DNA of 64,000 nt, taken from the NCBI GenBank assembly GCA_030697165.1, contig JAUYQQ010000022.1, positions 496,001 to 560,000 on the forward strand, written 5' to 3'. This document shows positions 3,812-55,013 of this stretch, one piece after another (the stretch's first letter is position 1; every line of letters starts with the position of its first letter). Both the position numbers and the translations under genes were made by a program. The notes beneath the pieces are model-generated. The model saw nothing but the letters and a program-made list of their open reading frames with translations, did not search any database and was not told the origin of the DNA. This DNA comes from Acidobacteriota bacterium (lineage in GTDB: Bacteria; Acidobacteriota; Vicinamibacteria; Vicinamibacterales; UBA2999).

Positions 3812-3820
3812 TCCTCAGGC

Positions 3821-4050
3821 CACAGATTAGACACCGATTAGACGCAGATTCAGGCGGCCTGCCGGCGCAGTTCGCTGGCGGCGCTACGCGCCGCTGGTGT
3901 GATGACAGTCGGCGAGCAAATGAGTCCGGAGGACGGTTCGCAGTGGACTCTTTTCTCGCCGGCTGTCATCGCACCAAGCTCCGGCCAAGGGCCGGAGCCA
4001 GCGAACTCCCATCGGTGTCTAATCTGTGTTTAATCTGTGGCTGTCTTTTA
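3821..4050. repeat. Composite inverted repeat: CAGATTA iterons enclosing a second palindrome
   Basis: The outer left arm holds CACAGATTAGA, CACCGATTAGA and CGCAGATT at 11-nt spacing; the outer right arm (about 4013-4042) is the inverse, ending AATCTGTGGCTG. Nested inside is another inverted pair: AGTTCGCTGG with TGATGACAG on the left and CTGTCATCGCA with CCAGCGAACT on the right. The right edge reaches the TAA stop of lysK at 4048-4050. No protein-coding potential is visible in the 250-nt gap. Confidence 0.7.
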
Positions 4051-8346: not shown

Positions 8347-8476
8347 GGATGATTTGGTGGTCTTGTGGTTTGTTGGTGTGGTGATTGTGATTTGGGATTT
8401 ACAGATTTGCGGATTCCACCCCGCTAAATCTGTGCCTGATCTGTGTTTAATCTGTGGCTGTTCTGTCGGTGGCCTA
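8347..8476. repeat. CAGATTA-class repeat between lysX and lysY
   Basis: Contains TTACAGATTTGCGGATT and, inverted, AAATCTGTGCCTGATCTGTG then TTTAATCTGTGGCTG; a neighbouring GGTGGTCTTGTGGTTTGTTG tract is TTGGTGG-rich. The edge CGGTGGCCTAG overlaps the lysX stop codon. The same edge, slightly changed, abuts the nei gene at 33967. Confidence 0.65.
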
Positions 8477-14476: not shown

Positions 14477-14482
14477 ATACAG

Positions 14483-14574
14483 CCGGGAGTCGGGAGTCGG
14501 GAGTCGGAAAAGACACTTGTCTTCAAATTTGGCGACTCCCGCCCGACTCCCGGTTCCCGACTCCCGACTCCCGG
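14483..14574. repeat. Palindromic repeat with 7-nt CGGGAGT iterons
   Basis: The left arm holds three tandem CGGGAGT units; the right arm holds several inverted ACTCCCG units, around a central AAGACACTTGTCTT palindrome. It can form a long hairpin with several pairing registers. It begins 6 nt after the proline dehydrogenase stop and ends next to the TATGAT box of the next gene. Confidence 0.8.
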
Positions 14575-15271: not shown

Positions 15272-15342
15272 AACAGGAGATCAGGAGGTCAAGAGGCAGG
15301 CCTTCTAAATTCCTGTCTCCTAATCTCCTGATCTTCTGTTTA
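15272..15342. repeat. Palindromic repeat, AGGAGAT-iteron class, copy 4
   Basis: Arms AACAGGAGATCAGGAGGTCA and the inverse TCCTGTCTCCTAATCTCCTG plus ATCTTCTGTT. It lies 8 nt after the globin stop and ends about 10 nt before the osmC -10 box. Confidence 0.75.
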
Positions 15343-18255: not shown

Positions 18256-18365
18256 GGCTAGGGTGCCTAGGGTGCCTAGGGTGCCTGAAGTGCCTAAAGT
18301 GCCGACGGCCTGCTCAACATTAGCACCCTGGGCACGTTAGGCACCCCAGGCACCCCTTAGGCACC
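18256..18365. repeat. Palindromic repeat with 9-nt GGTGCCTAG iterons
   Basis: Four tandem GGTGCCTAG-like units form the left arm, followed by inverted GGCACC units forming the right arm, around an unpaired centre. It begins directly after the TPR/CHAT stop codon. A tandem-only relative lies at 62911 and a short version at the fdhD 5' end. Confidence 0.8.
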
Positions 18366-25610: not shown

Positions 25611-25688
25611 CTCTGCGTGCAACGACAGAGGGGAAGCACCGGGTGGGGCATCGCCTTGCAAGCCGCAATGTCCCCGCCCGGTTTTTTT
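25611..25688 (+). ncRNA. Candidate small RNA of about 78 nt ending in a strong terminator
   Basis: TAAAAT at 25599-25604 would place a transcription start near 25611. The RNA would open with a hairpin (CCTCTG/CAGAGG with a CGTGCAACGA loop), then GGGAAGC, then a long stem ACCGGGTGGGGCAT/ATGTCCCCGCCCGGT followed by seven T. No open reading frame of note lies inside, and the downstream gene has its own TATAAT box. It might instead be an attenuator. I do not match it to a known RNA class. Confidence 0.45.
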
Positions 25689-25699
25689 GTTGGTCGCGG

Positions 25700-25705
25700 T
25701 ATAAT
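25700..25705 (+). promoter_or_regulatory. Consensus -10 box TATAAT for the Tat zinc-ribbon gene
   Basis: Perfect TATAAT 64 nt before the ATG. The leader contains a small GGGCTTTAGCCC hairpin and an AGGAGAT ribosome-binding site. Confidence 0.6.
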
Positions 25706-25769
25706 GCTGAACAGACGGGCTTTAGCCCAGCTGTTGAAGACCACAGCGCTTTCAGGAGATCACTTGCCC

Positions 25770-26084
25770 ATGTTCGAAAATGTGAACGGTTCGGGCCTCA
25801 ATCGGCGCTCATTCCTCCGCGGCTCGGCCATGTTTGCGGCCGCCATCGGCGTGTCGGTCATTCCCGCGTTTGCGCAGGAGCAACAGCCGCCACCCAAGCC
25901 GGAAGAAGAGAAGAAGAAGGAAGAGCCGAAGGATCCGTTTGCCGACGGCGACGCGAAGGACGAGAAGAAGCTGGTCGACGCCGAGGGCCGCGAATACCGC
26001 GTCTGCCCGCAGTGCGCCTACAACATGTACAAGCAGGGCCGCATGTGGGTGTGTGAGAACTGCGGATACAGCTACGTAGAGTAA
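25770..26084 (+). CDS. Tat-exported zinc-ribbon protein of unknown function
   Basis: 104 residues. A twin-arginine signal (LNRRSFLRGSAMFAAAIGVS, cleaved near AFAQE) precedes a lysine/glutamate/proline-rich linker and a C-terminal zinc ribbon with CPQCAYNMYK and CENCGYSY. Tat export suggests the metal centre folds in the cytoplasm. AGGAGAT about 9 nt upstream of ATG 25770 fixes the start; the frame is open further upstream. A strong terminator follows. I recognise no family; a rubredoxin-like role is speculative. Confidence 0.75.
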   Translation: MFENVNGSGLNRRSFLRGSAMFAAAIGVSVIPAFAQEQQPPPKPEEEKKKEEPKDPFADGDAKDEKKLVDAEGREYRVCPQCAYNMYKQGRMWVCENCGYSYVE

Positions 26085-26110
26085 CCAGCCGCTTCCGCTA
26101 GATTCGACAG

Positions 26111-26150
26111 ACGCCCGGTTCCCGCTTGGGGGCCGGGCGTTTTGTTTTTT
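26111..26150 (+). terminator. Rho-independent terminator after the Tat zinc-ribbon gene
   Basis: Stem ACGCCCGG/CCGGGCGT with a CCCGCTTGGGG-containing loop, followed by TTTGTTTTTT. Confidence 0.85.
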
Positions 26151-26201
26151 TATGGGTGGGATTGAGTTGTCCGCAGATTACGCCGATTACACCGATTGGG
26201 T

Positions 26202-26337
26202 GGACCCGCGGCGCCAGGCTTTGCCTGGCGCGAGGCAAGACGGCAACGGGCGAGAATCAAGAGACCGCAAACGACCAGACGTCTCTTGATTTCGCCCGTT
26301 GCCGTCTTGCCCGGCCCGGAGGGCCGGCCGCGGGTCC
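26202..26337. repeat. Left cloverleaf-forming repeat
   Basis: Closing stem GGACCCGCGG (26202-26211) with CCGCGGGTCC (26328-26337). Inside are hairpin 1 GCGCCAGGC/GCCTGGCGC (26211-26231), hairpin 2 with ~30-bp arms (26235-26310, GCAAGACGG..CCGTCTTGC) and hairpin 3 CCGGCCC/GGGCCGG (26311-26327), placed almost without gaps. Confidence 0.8.
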
Positions 26338-26343
26338 GATCAC

Positions 26344-26742
26344 TCACGCGTTTGGCGTCCACACAATTCGCCGGTACTCGAGGCTCCGCGCGCCGAAGTT
26401 CAGCAGCAGGCCGCGCTGCGCGCCAGAGGCGCGGAGGTAGTTGATGACCTGCGACAGGTGGACGGGCGACAACTCCGCGACGGCTTTCGCCTCGACGAGC
26501 ACCTGCCCGCACACGAAATCTACACGGTAGTTTGTCGGCAGGCGCTCGCCCTTGTAGTCGATTGGCAAGGCGACTTCCGGCCAGAACTGGATTGAACGGA
26601 GCCGAAACTCAATTGCGAGTGCGGCCTTGTAGACTGCTTCCAGATAGCCACATCCGAGTTCCCGGTGCACCGCCATGGCTGCACCGATGATGTCGTAGGT
26701 GTCTTGATCGCGCTGAGAGGGCTGGATGGATGTTGTCGACAT
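26344..26742 (-). CDS. GxxExxY family protein (PD-(D/E)XK nuclease fold)
   Basis: 132 residues. The family signature GYLEAVY (G32, E35, Y38) is followed by YRVDFVCGQVLVEAKAVAEL, where D75, E84 and K86 fit the PD-(D/E)XK nuclease core, and by HLSQVINYLRASG and GLLLNFGARSLEYRRI. The family occurs in many copies in some bacterial genomes and its function is not established. It lies alone between two inverted structured repeats and its stop is 7 nt from the left copy. No Shine-Dalgarno or TANNNT box is obvious at ATG 26742. Confidence 0.85.
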   Translation of the reverse strand: MSTTSIQPSQRDQDTYDIIGAAMAVHRELGCGYLEAVYKAALAIEFRLRSIQFWPEVALPIDYKGERLPTNYRVDFVCGQVLVEAKAVAELSPVHLSQVINYLRASGAQRGLLLNFGARSLEYRRIVWTPNA

Positions 26743-26862
26743 GCCACTTGTTCAAGCACGCGGCGTGCCTCACGAATTCTCTCCAGAATCGCGTTTGACG
26801 GTGGGCGAGTGCGCAGTTGTTGCGATAGCGCCGGCGAAACGGCGGCTCAATTTTTGCCATCG

Positions 26863-26995
26863 GGACCGCGGCCGGCCCTTTGGGCCGGGCAAGACGGCAA
26901 CAGGCAAAATCAAGAGACCACAAGCAGCCCGAAGTCTCTTGATTTCGCCTGTTGCCGTCTTGCCGAGCGCCAGGCGAAGCCTGGCGCCGCGGTCC
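26863..26995. repeat. Right cloverleaf-forming repeat (inverted copy)
   Basis: Closing stem GGACCGCGG (26863-26871) with CCGCGGTCC (26987-26995), holding CCGGCCC/GGGCCGG, the ~30-bp GCAAGACGG hairpin (26889-26963) and GCGCCAGGC/GCCTGGCGC. Relative to the left copy the closing stem has lost one C and the matching G, and the long hairpin has a G:C to A:T swap, so pairing is kept. This copy fills most of the 305-nt gap 26743-27047. Confidence 0.8.
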
Positions 26996-27047
26996 GCCGA
27001 GGCGGGCCATGAATCGGCGTAATCCGCGTAATCTGCGGACAACAAGA

Positions 27048-28280
27048 TCAGGAGCTAGCCACCGTCTTCTCAACCAGGCGCAGGAACGCCGTGATGGTCT
27101 TCTCGAGGTGCGGCTCGGGTGTGTCCTCTTCCTTGCAGTGTGACAGGCCGTTCGCGGAATACGCAAACATCATGACCGTCGGCATGTGCGGCACCATCTC
27201 CGCCGCGTCGTGCAACGGGCCGGACGGCAGCAGCGGCGCGTCGCCAGTCGCCTCGCGGACGGCCTCGGTGCAGAGCGCAATCAGCCGCGGATCGAACGGC
27301 CGCGGCTCGATCCGCCACAGCGTTCGCCACTCCACGCCCACGTTGTTGTGGCGTGCCGCCTTGCCCGCCGCCTCACGGGCATCGGCCAGCATCTGCGCCA
27401 GCACGGACGCGTCGAGGGCGCGCTGATCGAGCGAGATCTCGCAGACCCCGGGTACGGCCGTGACGATCCCCGGCTCCACCTTCACCGTGCCCACCGTGCA
27501 GACGACCCGGGCATCGGGCGTGGTGTGCTTGACGGCGATCTCCCTGAACGCCAGCGCGCTTTCCGCCGCCGCCAGGAACGCGTCGCGCCGCATCGGAATG
27601 GGCGTGGAACCCGAGTGCGCGGCCTGGCCGGTGAACCGCAGCAGGTGGCGCTCCACCCCGAATGTCCCGAGGACGACACCGGCCGGCTTGTTCAGTGCCT
27701 CGAGCACCGGCCCCTGCTCGATATGCAGTTCGAGATAGGCCCGGGCATCGATCGCCTTCAGGAACGCCTGCGCCTCGTGCATGCGCGTCAGCTCGACGCC
27801 GTTCTCGCGCAACGCGTCCACCAGCCGGGTGCCGGCCTTGTCGGCCAGGTGCTCGACCTCGGAGACCGTCAAGGCCCCGCCGGCAGCAGAGGAGCCGAGC
27901 AGGCTGCGGCCGAAGCGAGCGCCCTCCTCGTCGGCCCAGTCCACCACCTTGATCGTGACCGGCGGTCGCCGGTCCTTGAACATACGCAGTGCCTCCAAGC
28001 CGGCCATCATCCCGAGCGTGCCGTCGAGCCAGCCGCCGTTCGGCACCGAGTCCAGGTGGCTGCCGATGATGACGGTCCGATCCGACTCGCCCGGCAGGGT
28101 GGCCCAGACGTTGCCCGCCGCATCGACCTCGGGCGTGATGCCGAGGGTGGCCAGCTTGCCGCTGAACCACTGCCGGGCCTCGCGCCACACCGGTCCCCAC
28201 GCCAGCCGCTGCGCGCCGTCGGGGGTCGAGGTGAGGGTGGCCACTTCTCGCAGGTTGGCGATGACGTCACGAGCGCTCAT
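27048..28280 (-). CDS. M20-family amidohydrolase (N-carbamoyl-amino acid hydrolase/allantoate amidohydrolase type)
   Basis: 410-residue binuclear zinc hydrolase. Signatures include GSHLDSVPNGGWLDG (metal histidine and aspartate), WADEEGARFGRSLLGS (bridging glutamate), ELHIEQGPVLE, the dimerisation-domain segment FTGQAAHSGSTPIPMRRDAF and SGPLHDAAEM. Family members cleave N-carbamoyl amino acids, ureidoglycolate or allantoate; the substrate is unresolved and no pyrimidine or purine degradation genes are adjacent. ATG 28280 has TATACT 8 nt upstream. The stop codon is 3 nt from the GxxExxY element. Confidence 0.88.
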   Translation of the reverse strand: MSARDVIANLREVATLTSTPDGAQRLAWGPVWREARQWFSGKLATLGITPEVDAAGNVWATLPGESDRTVIIGSHLDSVPNGGWLDGTLGMMAGLEALRMFKDRRPPVTIKVVDWADEEGARFGRSLLGSSAAGGALTVSEVEHLADKAGTRLVDALRENGVELTRMHEAQAFLKAIDARAYLELHIEQGPVLEALNKPAGVVLGTFGVERHLLRFTGQAAHSGSTPIPMRRDAFLAAAESALAFREIAVKHTTPDARVVCTVGTVKVEPGIVTAVPGVCEISLDQRALDASVLAQMLADAREAAGKAARHNNVGVEWRTLWRIEPRPFDPRLIALCTEAVREATGDAPLLPSGPLHDAAEMVPHMPTVMMFAYSANGLSHCKEEDTPEPHLEKTITAFLRLVEKTVASS

Positions 28281-33076: not shown

Positions 33077-33895
33077 ATGCAGGCCGGAGCCCGGGACGTC
33101 ATCATCCACCGCGTCGGCGAGGCCGCGCCGGTGTCCGACCGCGTGGCGGTCGAGGAGCCGATGGAGGTGCGCGTCAATGGCGCGCCGTTCGCGGTGATCA
33201 TGCGCACGCCGGGCGCCGACCGCGACCTGGCCGCCGGCTTCCTGCTGGCCGAGGACGTGATTCGCTCAGACGCCGAGATTGGCGCGATCGAGTACTGCGC
33301 CGCTCCGGACGATGACGAGCGCGAGAACACCATCAACGTCACGGTCCTGGGCGAGGCGGTGGCGCGACTCGACGCCCGCCTGGGCGATCGCCGGCAGGTG
33401 ATGATGACGGCGTCGTGCGGGCTGTGCGGCCGGCGGACGATCGAATCGCTGCGCGCACGCGTGTCGGCGGTGGCCGGGCAGTGGACTGTGCCGGCCAGCG
33501 TGCTCGCCGCACTGCCCAATCGGCTGCGCGCCAGCCAGGCGGTGTTCGAGGCGACCGGCGGCCTGCACGCCGCTGGATTGTTCGACCGGACCGGAGCCCT
33601 GCAATTGTCGGCCGAAGACGTCGGCCGCCACAACGCCGTGGACAAGATTGTCGGCCGCACCCTGCTGGCGGGTCAGCATCCGCTGGACGATCGGCTGCTG
33701 CTCGTGTCGGGCCGCACCTCATTCGAGCTGGTCCAGAAGGCGCTGCTGGCCGGCGTGCCGCTGATTGCGGCGGTGTCGGCGCCGTCGAGCCTGGCCATTG
33801 ATTTAGCCACCGAGGCCGGGATCACGCTGTGCGGCTTCGTCCGCGGCGCCGGCTTCAACATTTACAGCCACCCACAACGGATCAGCCACGGATAG
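32963..33895 (+). CDS. fdhD: Formate dehydrogenase accessory sulfurtransferase FdhD
   Basis: 310 codons from GTG 32963; the conserved protein starts near residue 45. FdhD hallmarks are AVEEPMEVRVNGAPFAVIMR, GADRDLAAGFLLAEDVI, the catalytic cysteine pair in TASCGLCGRRTIES, SAEDVGRHNAVDKIVG and LVSGRTSFELVQKALLAGVP. It transfers sulfur from IscS to the Mo/W cofactor of formate dehydrogenase. The first 38 codons are repeat-derived, so translation may instead begin at ATG 33077 (272 residues, normal length). The C-terminal SHPQRISHG is also repeat-like. No formate dehydrogenase is in the window. Confidence 0.88.
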   Translation: MPKVPGVSASAANGRYGETSPKLAPKGRASEGGPTVPTMQAGARDVIIHRVGEAAPVSDRVAVEEPMEVRVNGAPFAVIMRTPGADRDLAAGFLLAEDVIRSDAEIGAIEYCAAPDDDERENTINVTVLGEAVARLDARLGDRRQVMMTASCGLCGRRTIESLRARVSAVAGQWTVPASVLAALPNRLRASQAVFEATGGLHAAGLFDRTGALQLSAEDVGRHNAVDKIVGRTLLAGQHPLDDRLLLVSGRTSFELVQKALLAGVPLIAAVSAPSSLAIDLATEAGITLCGFVRGAGFNIYSHPQRISHG

Positions 33896-33990
33896 AGCAG
33901 CCACAGATTAAACGCCGATTAGGCACAGATCGAGAAAACCCAACTTCCTATCTGTGTTTAATCGGCCTAATCTGTGGCTTTCTTATCGGT
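33866..33990. repeat. CAGATTA-class palindromic repeat between fdhD and nei
   Basis: CAGCCACAGATTAAACGCCGATTAGGCACAGAT-type iterons at 11-nt spacing on the left and the inverse ATCTGTGTTTAATCGGCCTA then ATCTGTGGCT on the right. The right part encodes the last residues (ATDKKATD) and the stop of nei; AGCCAC motifs extend into the end of fdhD. Confidence 0.7.
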
Positions 33991-34815
33991 GGCCTGGCAA
34001 GTGGGACACCAATACGTGGCCCTGGCGTCGAGGCCCATCTTCTTTGAGGCGATCGCCGCGCCGCAGTTGCGGCATGGCTTTCCTGCGCGGCTATAGACCC
34101 ACAGGCTGTCTTCGGGATCCGACCGCCGGTCTGCGCGCCGGAGCGATCGATAGGTCTGGATCGCGGCCGGCGTGCCGTCCACCACGTTGGCTTGCAGCAG
34201 CGAGCGCGCCAGGTCCATCACGCGCTCGAGCGCGTCCTGCGCGACGCCACTCGCGGGCGTGTCGGGGTGAACCCCGGCGAGAAACAACACCTCCGATTTG
34301 TAGACGTTGCCGATCCCCGCCACCAGCCGCTGATCGAGCAGCGCCTGCGCGATTGGCAACGCCCCGGCGGCCCGCACGCGGCGGATGGCCTCGTCGCGAT
34401 CGAACGTGGGCTTGAGCAAGTCGGGTCCGAGCGCGGCGACCGGATCGGTCGACACCAGTTGCTTCGCGGTCACGAACTCCGCTACCGGCACGTCGAACGC
34501 GACCGTCACCCAGTCGGCCGTGTCAATCCGCACCCGCATGGCCTGCGGTCCGCGCCACCAGCGCTCGCCGTGCCGATAGACATGCCACGAGCCGTTCATC
34601 CGCATGTGCGTGCGGAGAACCAAGTCCCCCTCGAAGACGATCAGGACATGCTTGCCGGCCGCCTCGCACCGCTCGATCATCCTTCCCGCGATCGGCCCAT
34701 CGTCGTTCACCCGCGCCAGGTGCGCGTAGGCGGTGTCGAAGTGGGTCGCGCGATGGCCCGCCAGCACCTTCTGCAGCGTACGAGCCGTCCGGAAGATGGT
34801 GTCGCCTTCAGGCAT
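33967..34815 (-). CDS. nei: Fpg/Nei family DNA glycosylase (endonuclease VIII-like)
   Basis: 282 residues. It starts MPEGDTIFRTARTLQKVLAG: the catalytic Pro1/Glu2 of Nei rather than the PELPE of Fpg. It has the helix-two-turn-helix segment QRLVAGIGNVYKSEVLFLAG and a C-terminal zinc finger with CRNC and CPTC. It excises oxidised pyrimidines and nicks the abasic site. I start at ATG 34815, not the longer frame, because proline must follow the initiator. It overlaps lhr by 8 nt. The C-terminal ATDKKATD comes from a repeat. Confidence 0.9.
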   Translation of the reverse strand: MPEGDTIFRTARTLQKVLAGHRATHFDTAYAHLARVNDDGPIAGRMIERCEAAGKHVLIVFEGDLVLRTHMRMNGSWHVYRHGERWWRGPQAMRVRIDTADWVTVAFDVPVAEFVTAKQLVSTDPVAALGPDLLKPTFDRDEAIRRVRAAGALPIAQALLDQRLVAGIGNVYKSEVLFLAGVHPDTPASGVAQDALERVMDLARSLLQANVVDGTPAAIQTYRSLRRADRRSDPEDSLWVYSRAGKPCRNCGAAIASKKMGLDARATYWCPTCQATDKKATD

Positions 34816-54858: not shown

Positions 54859-55013
54859 CCGGGGACTGACCCCGAGCAGGAGTTGCCGAGGGGTCTGTCC
54901 CCCTGGCACAGGATCGGGTCGCAGCCTCCGCGATGGGGTCAGACCCCTCGACAGATATCCCTCGGGGGCAGACCCCACGCCGAATCTCCCTCGGGGTCAG
55001 ACCCCGCCGCAGT
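54856..55013. repeat. Cluster of GGGGTCAGACCCC-type palindromes
   Basis: Several 13-nt palindromes (GGGGTCTGTCCCC, GGGGTCAGACCCC, GGGGGCAGACCCC, GGGGTCAGACCCC) at 30-45 nt spacing between the nuoN stop and the hybrid kinase. They can pair locally or with each other. The arrangement could be terminators or stacked operators, and no coding sequence is seen. Confidence 0.7.

Follow-up and report, generated by a model that had tools for sequence, protein, structure and literature searches.

A GxxExxY nuclease gene between cognate inward iteron arrays: a candidate mobile unit with REP/RAYT-like organisation

The closest described counterparts of the locus analysed here are the REP/REPIN-RAYT systems ('REPtrons'), which the accessible text of two reports describes as a nuclease gene together with short repeats dispersed extragenically as inverted doublets; SBW25 has three repeat groups, each near a specific RAYT (PMC3116915, PMC8266576). 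The RAYT gene is presented in the same text as more housekeeping-like than transposase-like (PMC3116915, PMC8266576), and for the tnpA-REP gene there was 'no evidence of mobility' (PMC8266576). Rpn or YhgA-like proteins (PF04754) figure in the available parts of a further paper as small PD-(D/E)XK DNA nucleases tied to recombination, with independent insertions at one place (PMC5350276). According to the sections available, G. bemidjiensis has intergenic multicopy families that insert non-randomly, some palindromic and others composed of 6-42 nt direct repeats (PMC2996986), and multicopy nucleotide sequences are abundant in G. metallireducens also (PMC2700814). For GxxExxY proteins, the accessible portion of the open-access literature yielded no function and its full text no link to repeats; work elsewhere may exist.

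The window, by which we mean the whole 64-kb stretch of DNA that was analysed, comes from a genome of 5.39 Mb. Between 26166 and 27043 it contains, in order, inward iterons, a cloverleaf of 136 bp, a minus-strand GxxExxY gene, an inverse cloverleaf and inverse iterons. An earlier note had described two inverted cloverleaf blocks and inverted CAGATTA iterons bracketing the gene, and this arrangement is real: the iterons at 26166-26197 are 94% complementary to those at 27012-27043, and the cloverleafs matched in inverse orientation with 90% and 92% complementarity over two aligned stretches. The features are as follows.

25617-26084, plus strand: left neighbour, a small protein with a weak TAT-signal match below the Pfam cut-off; used as a flank in the empty-site comparison.
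26166-26197, plus strand: left end, an inward array of three 9-bp iterons (CGCAGATTA CGCCGATTA CACCGATT) with the tip GTTGTC.
26202-26337, no strand assigned: left cloverleaf (four-way-junction) block, from folding, the strict architecture finder and the covariance model.
26344-26742, minus strand: GxxExxY gene, 132 aa, PD-(D/E)XK nuclease with D75, E84 and K86, from profile matches and residues.
26862-26996 by the covariance model (26863-26995 by the strict finder), no strand assigned: right cloverleaf block, an inverted copy of the left.
27012-27043, minus strand: right end, three iterons in an inverted array, from self-comparison of the window.
27048-28280, minus strand: right neighbour, a Peptidase_M20-family gene; used as a flank in the empty-site comparison.
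3819-4041, no strand assigned: gene-less element of the same type, with inverted CAGATTA arrays round a third cloverleaf (3869-4007).
33885-33993, no strand assigned: short gene-less inverted CAGATTA array in which no cloverleaf was found.

Elsewhere in the window, a lone array of three CAGATTA-like iterons (8428-8456) has no partner within 1 kb. Gene-less inverted short-repeat arrays of other types lie at 14481-14574 (CGGGAGTC), 15272-15340 (CAGGAG) and 18258-18355 (CTAGGGTGC), and interlocking inverted repeats with GGGGTCTGACCCC-like units at 54860-55006. At the site orthologous to the 14481-14574 array, G001 is bare and other relatives show changes.

The product of the gene matched PF13366 (E 6.2e-36, 123.7 bits, cut-off 22) and TIGR04256 (E 9e-39, 132.4 bits, cut-off 35), and belongs to the GxxExxY/PDDEXK_3 family by these profiles and its intact PD-(D/E)XK residues. 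D75, E84 and K86 are kept in 136, 136 and 137 of 138 family members, and the full active-site set, with E or D allowed at position 84, is intact in 135 of the 138. At E<=1, Pfam and NCBIfam gave only PDDEXK_3, GxxExxY and one sub-threshold acyltransferase match, with no HUH family among them, which upholds the original description of a PD-(D/E)XK-like nuclease with a fold unlike that of RAYT. No solved homologue was found at E<=5. The family is as widespread, and its function as unsettled, as had been proposed: PF13366 was matched in 35 of 60 relatives (73 matches, some fragmentary), and a scan of named genomes with one peptide pattern confirmed at least 576 GxxExxY places.

Inward iteron arrays stood on both sides of the gene at 98 of 136 loci, made up of 63 of the 74 global and 35 of the 62 order-level ones, against 6 of 136 for the outward control; a further 20 loci had an inward array on just one side, and 18 had none. 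The 136 were drawn from 143 loci after dropping four genomes present twice, plus L118, L171 and L191, and the array definition leaves out some types (e.g., CACGGAAGC, ACGGAGG, CAGGAG), for which the counts are low. The bracket is an inward pair of arrays of 8-9 bp iterons with the core CAC-RRA-G, modally 3 + 3; the commonest array has three iterons at a spacing of 8 or 9 bp, at least three iterons were present on both sides at 68 of the 136 loci, and the median unit length is 498 bp. The same bracket was seen at none of 4843 random (overlapping) places in the window and at one of 662 other places in the same loci.

Direct comparison of the flanks gave a similar picture. The left flank matched the inverse of the right with a score of >=16 at 48 of 61 order-level loci, where cross-pairs reached it in 5.4% of cases and the direct orientation at 8 of 61 loci, and at 60 of 78 global loci, compared with 16.8% and 13 of 78. 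(L076 and L118, at contig ends, were dropped from the 63 order-level loci, and L171 and L191 from the 80 global ones.) The matching DNA was mostly 8-9 bp repeat array, the sequence of which varies by locus (CACGAAGGA, CACAGAGGA, CACGGAAGC, CGCAGATTA and others). Left-right identity exceeded that of cross-pairs to ~5 nt past the first iteron and then fell near background, with a lone excess at -12, and the end consensus over the 98 loci was TTNRC-CAC. The general end of the element is the iteron array, not the cloverleaf.

The order-level set comprised 63 of 73 PF13366 matches, after ten short fragments were set aside. A single peptide pattern supplied the 80 global loci, taken among the matches listed; they are the query's nearest relatives, a non-random sample, and span Acidobacteria, Verrucomicrobia, Chloroflexi, Planctomycetes, Nitrospira, Bacteroidetes, several proteobacterial classes, Leptospira relatives, Omnitrophota and the archaeon Methanoperedens. 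The window genome has eight PF13366 genes, the window gene and seven more. Four of the eight have both-sided arrays under the one definition; a fifth, L015 (CACGGAAGC type), is bracketed by reading, and two more are close to a contig end, at 223 and 384 bp.

With a probability of about 0.6, we read the locus as a compact, (recently) mobile unit, in which a GxxExxY PD-(D/E)XK gene lies between inward, cognate arrays of 8-9 bp iterons that act as its ends, the gene-less elements being non-autonomous copies. The nuclease would drive the movement of both the arrays and the unit.

Gene-less inverted arrays are dispersed in these genomes and are more numerous than GxxExxY genes. A three-iteron RRAG pattern gave 931 matches in the 60 relatives against 22 for the reversed pattern; these RRAG counts include arrays at genes and count an inverted pair twice. 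In 26 named-record genomes, all picked for holding the gene, there were 381 matches in 24 genomes and none reversed. In six relatives, many among the matches listed were inverted pairs with a short spacer, often ~20 nt; the placement of gene-less arrays was intergenic at the sites shown. The window genome (G000) had 18 RRAG matches and none reversed, whereas the CAGATT pattern gave 11 + 9 matches there and its reversed control 31 + 24, so that the RRAG pattern and site reading were used for this genome. The 55 reversed CAGATT matches in G000, of which there were few elsewhere, possibly represent another iteron family, such as that at 18258-18355 of the window.

Presence of arrays went with presence of the gene: arrays were found in 32 of 35 genomes with PF13366 and in 5 of 25 without (Fisher 1.5e-8, kinship uncorrected), and CAGATT arrays in 9 of 11 genomes with a protein of the corresponding clade and in 7 of 49 without (p 3e-5). 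The genomes with arrays and no PF13366 match are G048, which has 54 RRAG matches and is 86% complete, and G019, G022, G033 and G014; G013 has 33 CAGATT matches, and no protein of that clade was found in it. Among the G048 loci (L284-L303, anchor located in 13 of 20 copies), one array family comprises at least five copies with near-identical ends and differing outer DNA where a flank was available. Some G048 elements run from about CTAGCAGGA to TCCTGCTAG.

The unit itself comes and goes at orthologous sites, as the earlier note's idea of a unit moving with its inverted ends would have it; this was seen both in the genus of the window and in Geomonas. At the window site, the unit was present in 2 of 9 genomes of the genus and the array absent in 4 of 9. 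G002 has the unit with an orthologous gene (77% nucleotide identity, dN 0.115, dS 1.07) and cloverleafs that differ in sequence. A CACGAAG pair without a gene lies there in G001, an inverted remnant of 20 bp in G005 and iteron remnants by a terminator in G006, and no array was found at the site in G003, G004, G007 or G008. Flank identities within the genus are ~76-87% and intergenic turnover is fast, which places the comparison of empty sites short of base-exact.

The GxxExxY locus of Geomonas azotofigens was matched in all 19 genomes of that genus, with both flanks read in 18. The gene is present in G063, G103, G096 and G100, and also in G101, where one flank was found. In G086 an internal deletion has left the two arrays and the final codons of the gene. 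Array pairs without the gene stand at the site in four genomes, inverted and of the same type in G088 and G089 and of a different type in G099 and G093; G102 has only 36 bp. The remaining eight genomes have other DNA, largely tandem repeats and in some cases with a remnant array, and the varied filling makes the locus look like a hot spot. In L334, L336, L337, L342 and L344-L346 the filling is largely tandem repeats of ~20-40 bp, TTCGACGAATC-like in several.

Dispersed places sampled in two Geomonas genomes had inward arrays in 20 of 20 cases. Seventeen of these 20 gene-less copies, aligned with the gene-bearing unit (L130), share one common inverted terminal repeat: AAACCRTTRG-CCACGGAG or AAACCRTTRG-CCACGGAGAAAATCTGAG, followed by direct 8-9 bp iterons, with conservation stopping ~11 nt outside the first iteron. 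No target duplication of note was found among the aligned copies. Eight elements had a mean pairwise identity of 0.72 internally and of 0.61 over their flanks, where the maximum was 0.85; the contrast is weak, partly because global alignment has a high floor.

Of the alternatives, the one that survives best, though we consider it unlikely, is that the GxxExxY protein is a resident nuclease using the arrays as binding or regulatory sites (for autoregulation, self-DNA marking or maintenance of structure), the arrays having spread otherwise. The arrays in 5 of 25 genomes in which no gene was detected, G048 among them, favor it, as do the housekeeping-like traits of the gene, namely purifying selection and rarity on plasmids and phages. 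Selection of this kind is suggested by dN values of 0.09-0.20 in seven gene pairs, set against dS values of 0.64-1.84 in the four computable pairs. The same dN values and the intact active sites also accord with the mobile-unit reading. Searches with one query (E<=1e-5) found the gene in 7 of 72,556 plasmid records, in none of 50,697 phage records and in two IMG/VR matches. The rarity on plasmids and absence from phage records point to little spread between hosts, and a role of phages or plasmids in spreading the gene is unsupported by these counts. The three plasmid-borne genes that were read, at fabD/fabG, radA/FAD-dependent protein and ade/mannose-1-phosphate guanylyltransferase, all had inverted iterons; for two plasmids tried, no near-identical plasmid lacking the gene was found. 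On the other hand, a resident nuclease would not account for a unit that is itself present or absent at orthologous sites, with gene-less derivatives in place, nor for several types coexisting in one genome, each with its own ends.

Iteron type follows protein lineage. On a tree of 134 of the 143 proteins, 111 of them clearly typed and 23 without a clear type, iteron type changed 13 times, compared with 36.6 changes after shuffling (0 of 200). For 46 labelled order-level rows there were 8 changes against 23.4 shuffled, and against 17.3 (0 of 500) when labels were shuffled within genomes only. Since the within-genome shuffle was still significant, the association of type with lineage is not a by-product of host composition. 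Nine genomes have more than one iteron type, each with its own ends. In a tree of 141 of the 143 proteins, the CAGATT and CAGATG types all fall in one clade (SH-aLRT 100) that includes the window gene, although many forks are unresolved because the protein is short.

Less probable again is that the unit is the cargo of another enzyme, e.g., an HUH (RAYT/IS200-like) or DDE transposase that reads the arrays in trans. The inverted ends and intergenic placement are REP-like and compatible with such a driver, and so is the lack of target duplication: for duplications of >=4 nt the best result was 3 of 98 loci, with 0.5 expected and over a thousand offsets and lengths tried. (Direct repeats of 2 nt adjoining the iterons numbered 26 against 10.8, an excess consistent with the palindromic GC of the tip.) However, action of a transposase in trans would not alone explain why iteron type tracks GxxExxY lineage within genomes, and the GTAG tag is absent from the end consensus.

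More doubtful still is a role in phage defence or as a toxin, with the nuclease carried in a small mobile cassette, as is reported for Rpn PD-(D/E)XK proteins in the accessible text of PMC10327210. The small PD-(D/E)XK protein, its patchy distribution and its repeated gain and loss would suit this role, and the Geomonas protein weakly matches Cas4, itself a PD-(D/E)XK nuclease, in PADLOC. That match (E 0.003) was the best given by three GxxExxY proteins, none of which matched a defence family well, and the remaining open reading frames of >=80 aa in the window unit matched no Pfam family above its cut-off that might mark a partner gene. To our knowledge, moreover, cognate DNA arrays are no feature of defence or toxin nuclease systems.

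The cloverleaf is a second module, found mostly away from the gene: a DNA four-way junction conserved in shape and free in sequence. Each window block has the closing stem and three hairpins first described for it, the stem being of 8-9 bp and the hairpins a GC hairpin, a long arm of ~31 bp and a second GC hairpin; the loops of both GC hairpins have 3 nt. Folding z-scores were -9.8 (left block, as DNA) and -10.5 (right block, as RNA). A strict architecture finder located exactly two blocks in the window and none in 640 kb of Markov-shuffled window, and the covariance model added the third, at 3869-4007. A DNA search with the left side (26100-26320) hit just three places outside the unit, with matches of 27-28 bp to the outer portion of the block.

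The architecture recurs at many places with differing sequence. Nineteen blocks from different loci are 129-144 bp long and 71-87% paired, with a mean identity of 0.65 compared with 0.59 after shuffling; for L024 the minimum-energy fold is not a cloverleaf. The covariance model, trained on just the pair of window blocks (effective number 0.44, thus nearly pure structure), recovered most of the other blocks but missed L066, L131, L074 and L079. Changes on both sides were found at 55 of 55 base pairs, and 95.7% of cells were paired against 54.8% when shuffled, in an alignment that was fitted to the structure and includes both strands of many blocks. At the inner end of the long arm (e.g., 26255-26291 of the window), seven aligned blocks have the motif TC(A/G)AGAG...CTCT(T/C)GA, the rest being variable.

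The least probable alternative, that the cloverleafs are RNA elements or terminators of convergent neighbours that adjoin the gene by chance, has on its side that the blocks are intergenic and fold strongly, and is very improbable given that G.U pairs (2%) are no commoner than A.C (30 against 35), which speaks for a DNA palindrome and not RNA, that many blocks match the covariance model on both strands, that no Rfam family reached its gathering score in 2 kb of the window and nine other loci (the E-value matches being microRNA hairpins far under their gathering scores), and that 25 of 26 cloverleaf places lie inside inward iterons.

Those 26 places are a minimum from an iteron-blind search of 60 genomes, in which 55 candidates per genome were scored under strict filters that missed known blocks of other families, making the census a lower bound. 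Matches occurred in seven genomes, six of them of the window's genus. Inward CAGATT iterons flank 17 of the places on both sides and another 8 on a single side, leaving one, in G055, as the exception. This record (L309, G055:C10:86234-86375), from another family of the order, is a match to the cloverleaf model with no adjoining iterons. The earlier note had staked its case on the blocks not being mostly gene-free and in random relation to the gene: mostly gene-free they are, with 8 of 26 places adjoining a GxxExxY gene, but the relation is not random, as their position within the iterons indicates. Double blocks flanking the gene were found in G000, G002 and G007.

Beside the gene, a cloverleaf was found at 13 of 139 loci, a lower bound (11 of 63 order-level and 2 of 76 global). 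These counts, together with 6 of the 8 GxxExxY genes of the window genome beside which none was found, dispose of the suggestion that the cloverleaf defines the unit or forms its universal end. The 13 are the union of two finders and the covariance model, which was run on the window and 75 of 303 loci; L066, L074, L079 and L131 were found by a finder only, though the model was run on them. The strict finder needs near-perfect helices and missed blocks that the model finds; the second missed both window blocks, which we attribute to a loose hairpin extension that shifts the ends, and a fold-based finder, too loose at 9 of 31 sites and 10 of 93 controls, was dropped. The cloverleaf is commonest in the window's genus and not confined there, being also present in genomes from other families of the order (G011, G013, G040, G041 and G057) and in the named Acidobacteria records L128 and L131.

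Returning to the mobile unit as the preferred reading, we suggest that the nuclease would bind its own iteron type at both ends and cut the hairpin or cruciform formed by the inverted ends, after which host replication or repair may copy the unit into a new intergenic site with no target duplication. The transposases of Mu and Tn7 likewise have several binding sites per end. In the window's genus, the 129-144 bp cloverleaf between iterons and gene would extrude as a four-way junction and is plausibly a structural substrate of the same nuclease. We know of no case in which the PD-(D/E)XK fold performs strand transfer on its own.

A broader proposal seems to us to stand at even odds: that GxxExxY proteins drive a so far unrecognised class of mobile DNA, present across many phyla of bacteria and in the archaeon Methanoperedens. 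Its autonomous form would be ~500 bp and need a single nuclease of ~125 residues, which reads the 3 + 3 iterons at the ends; gene-less copies would number tens per genome, and one acidobacterial lineage would have gained a sequence-free four-way junction as an extra recognition module. With the cognate-array rule, work on the GxxExxY family has a specific substrate to start from, and the rule could explain where intergenic repeats come from in many genomes. The cloverleaf would be a DNA element whose shape is conserved and whose sequence is not.

Compared with insertion sequences and MITEs, the likeness lies in a gene-bearing unit accompanied by shorter, internally deleted copies with common terminal inverted repeats. 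Unlike these, the unit has no known transposase, its ends are iterons and its median length is ~500 bp; a target-site duplication, which is not required of all such families, was not seen. The accessible text of a MITE review has none of the nuclease terms sought (PMC10969869). Rpn or YhgA-like proteins are likewise small and of the PD-(D/E)XK type, but belong to a different Pfam family, PF04754, which the window protein did not match. The Geobacter multicopy sequences, compared by description only, are likewise intergenic and, in the accessible sections, are not tied to a gene or driver (PMC2996986, PMC2700814).

Among enzymes acting on DNA junctions, the predicted nuclease fold resembles that of Holliday junction resolvases, and by analogy a four-way junction may be a substrate here too. 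Hjc and T7 endonuclease I are such resolvases with the PD-(D/E)XK fold. RAYT differs in being an HUH tyrosine enzyme, so that the PD-(D/E)XK protein falls outside that family. REP sequences are palindromes of 20-50 nt, usually tagged with GTAG or similar, whereas the ends here are direct arrays of 8-9 bp iterons with the outer sequences TTNRC-CAC and AAACCRTTRG; and in contrast to tnpA-REP, the gene-bearing unit comes and goes at orthologous sites. We call the nuclease-array class new because its protein and ends lack the defining features of the families tested and the accessible open-access literature gave no link between them. The comparison with REP/RAYT logic drawn at the outset is nonetheless apt: inverted doublets are dispersed and are cognate to a resident nuclease of a different fold, an arrangement that works alike without being a member of REP/REPIN. 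The locus is best read as a REP/RAYT-like system built on a PD-(D/E)XK nuclease and, if that nuclease moves the arrays, it would be a second, independent solution to the task performed by RAYT and REP.
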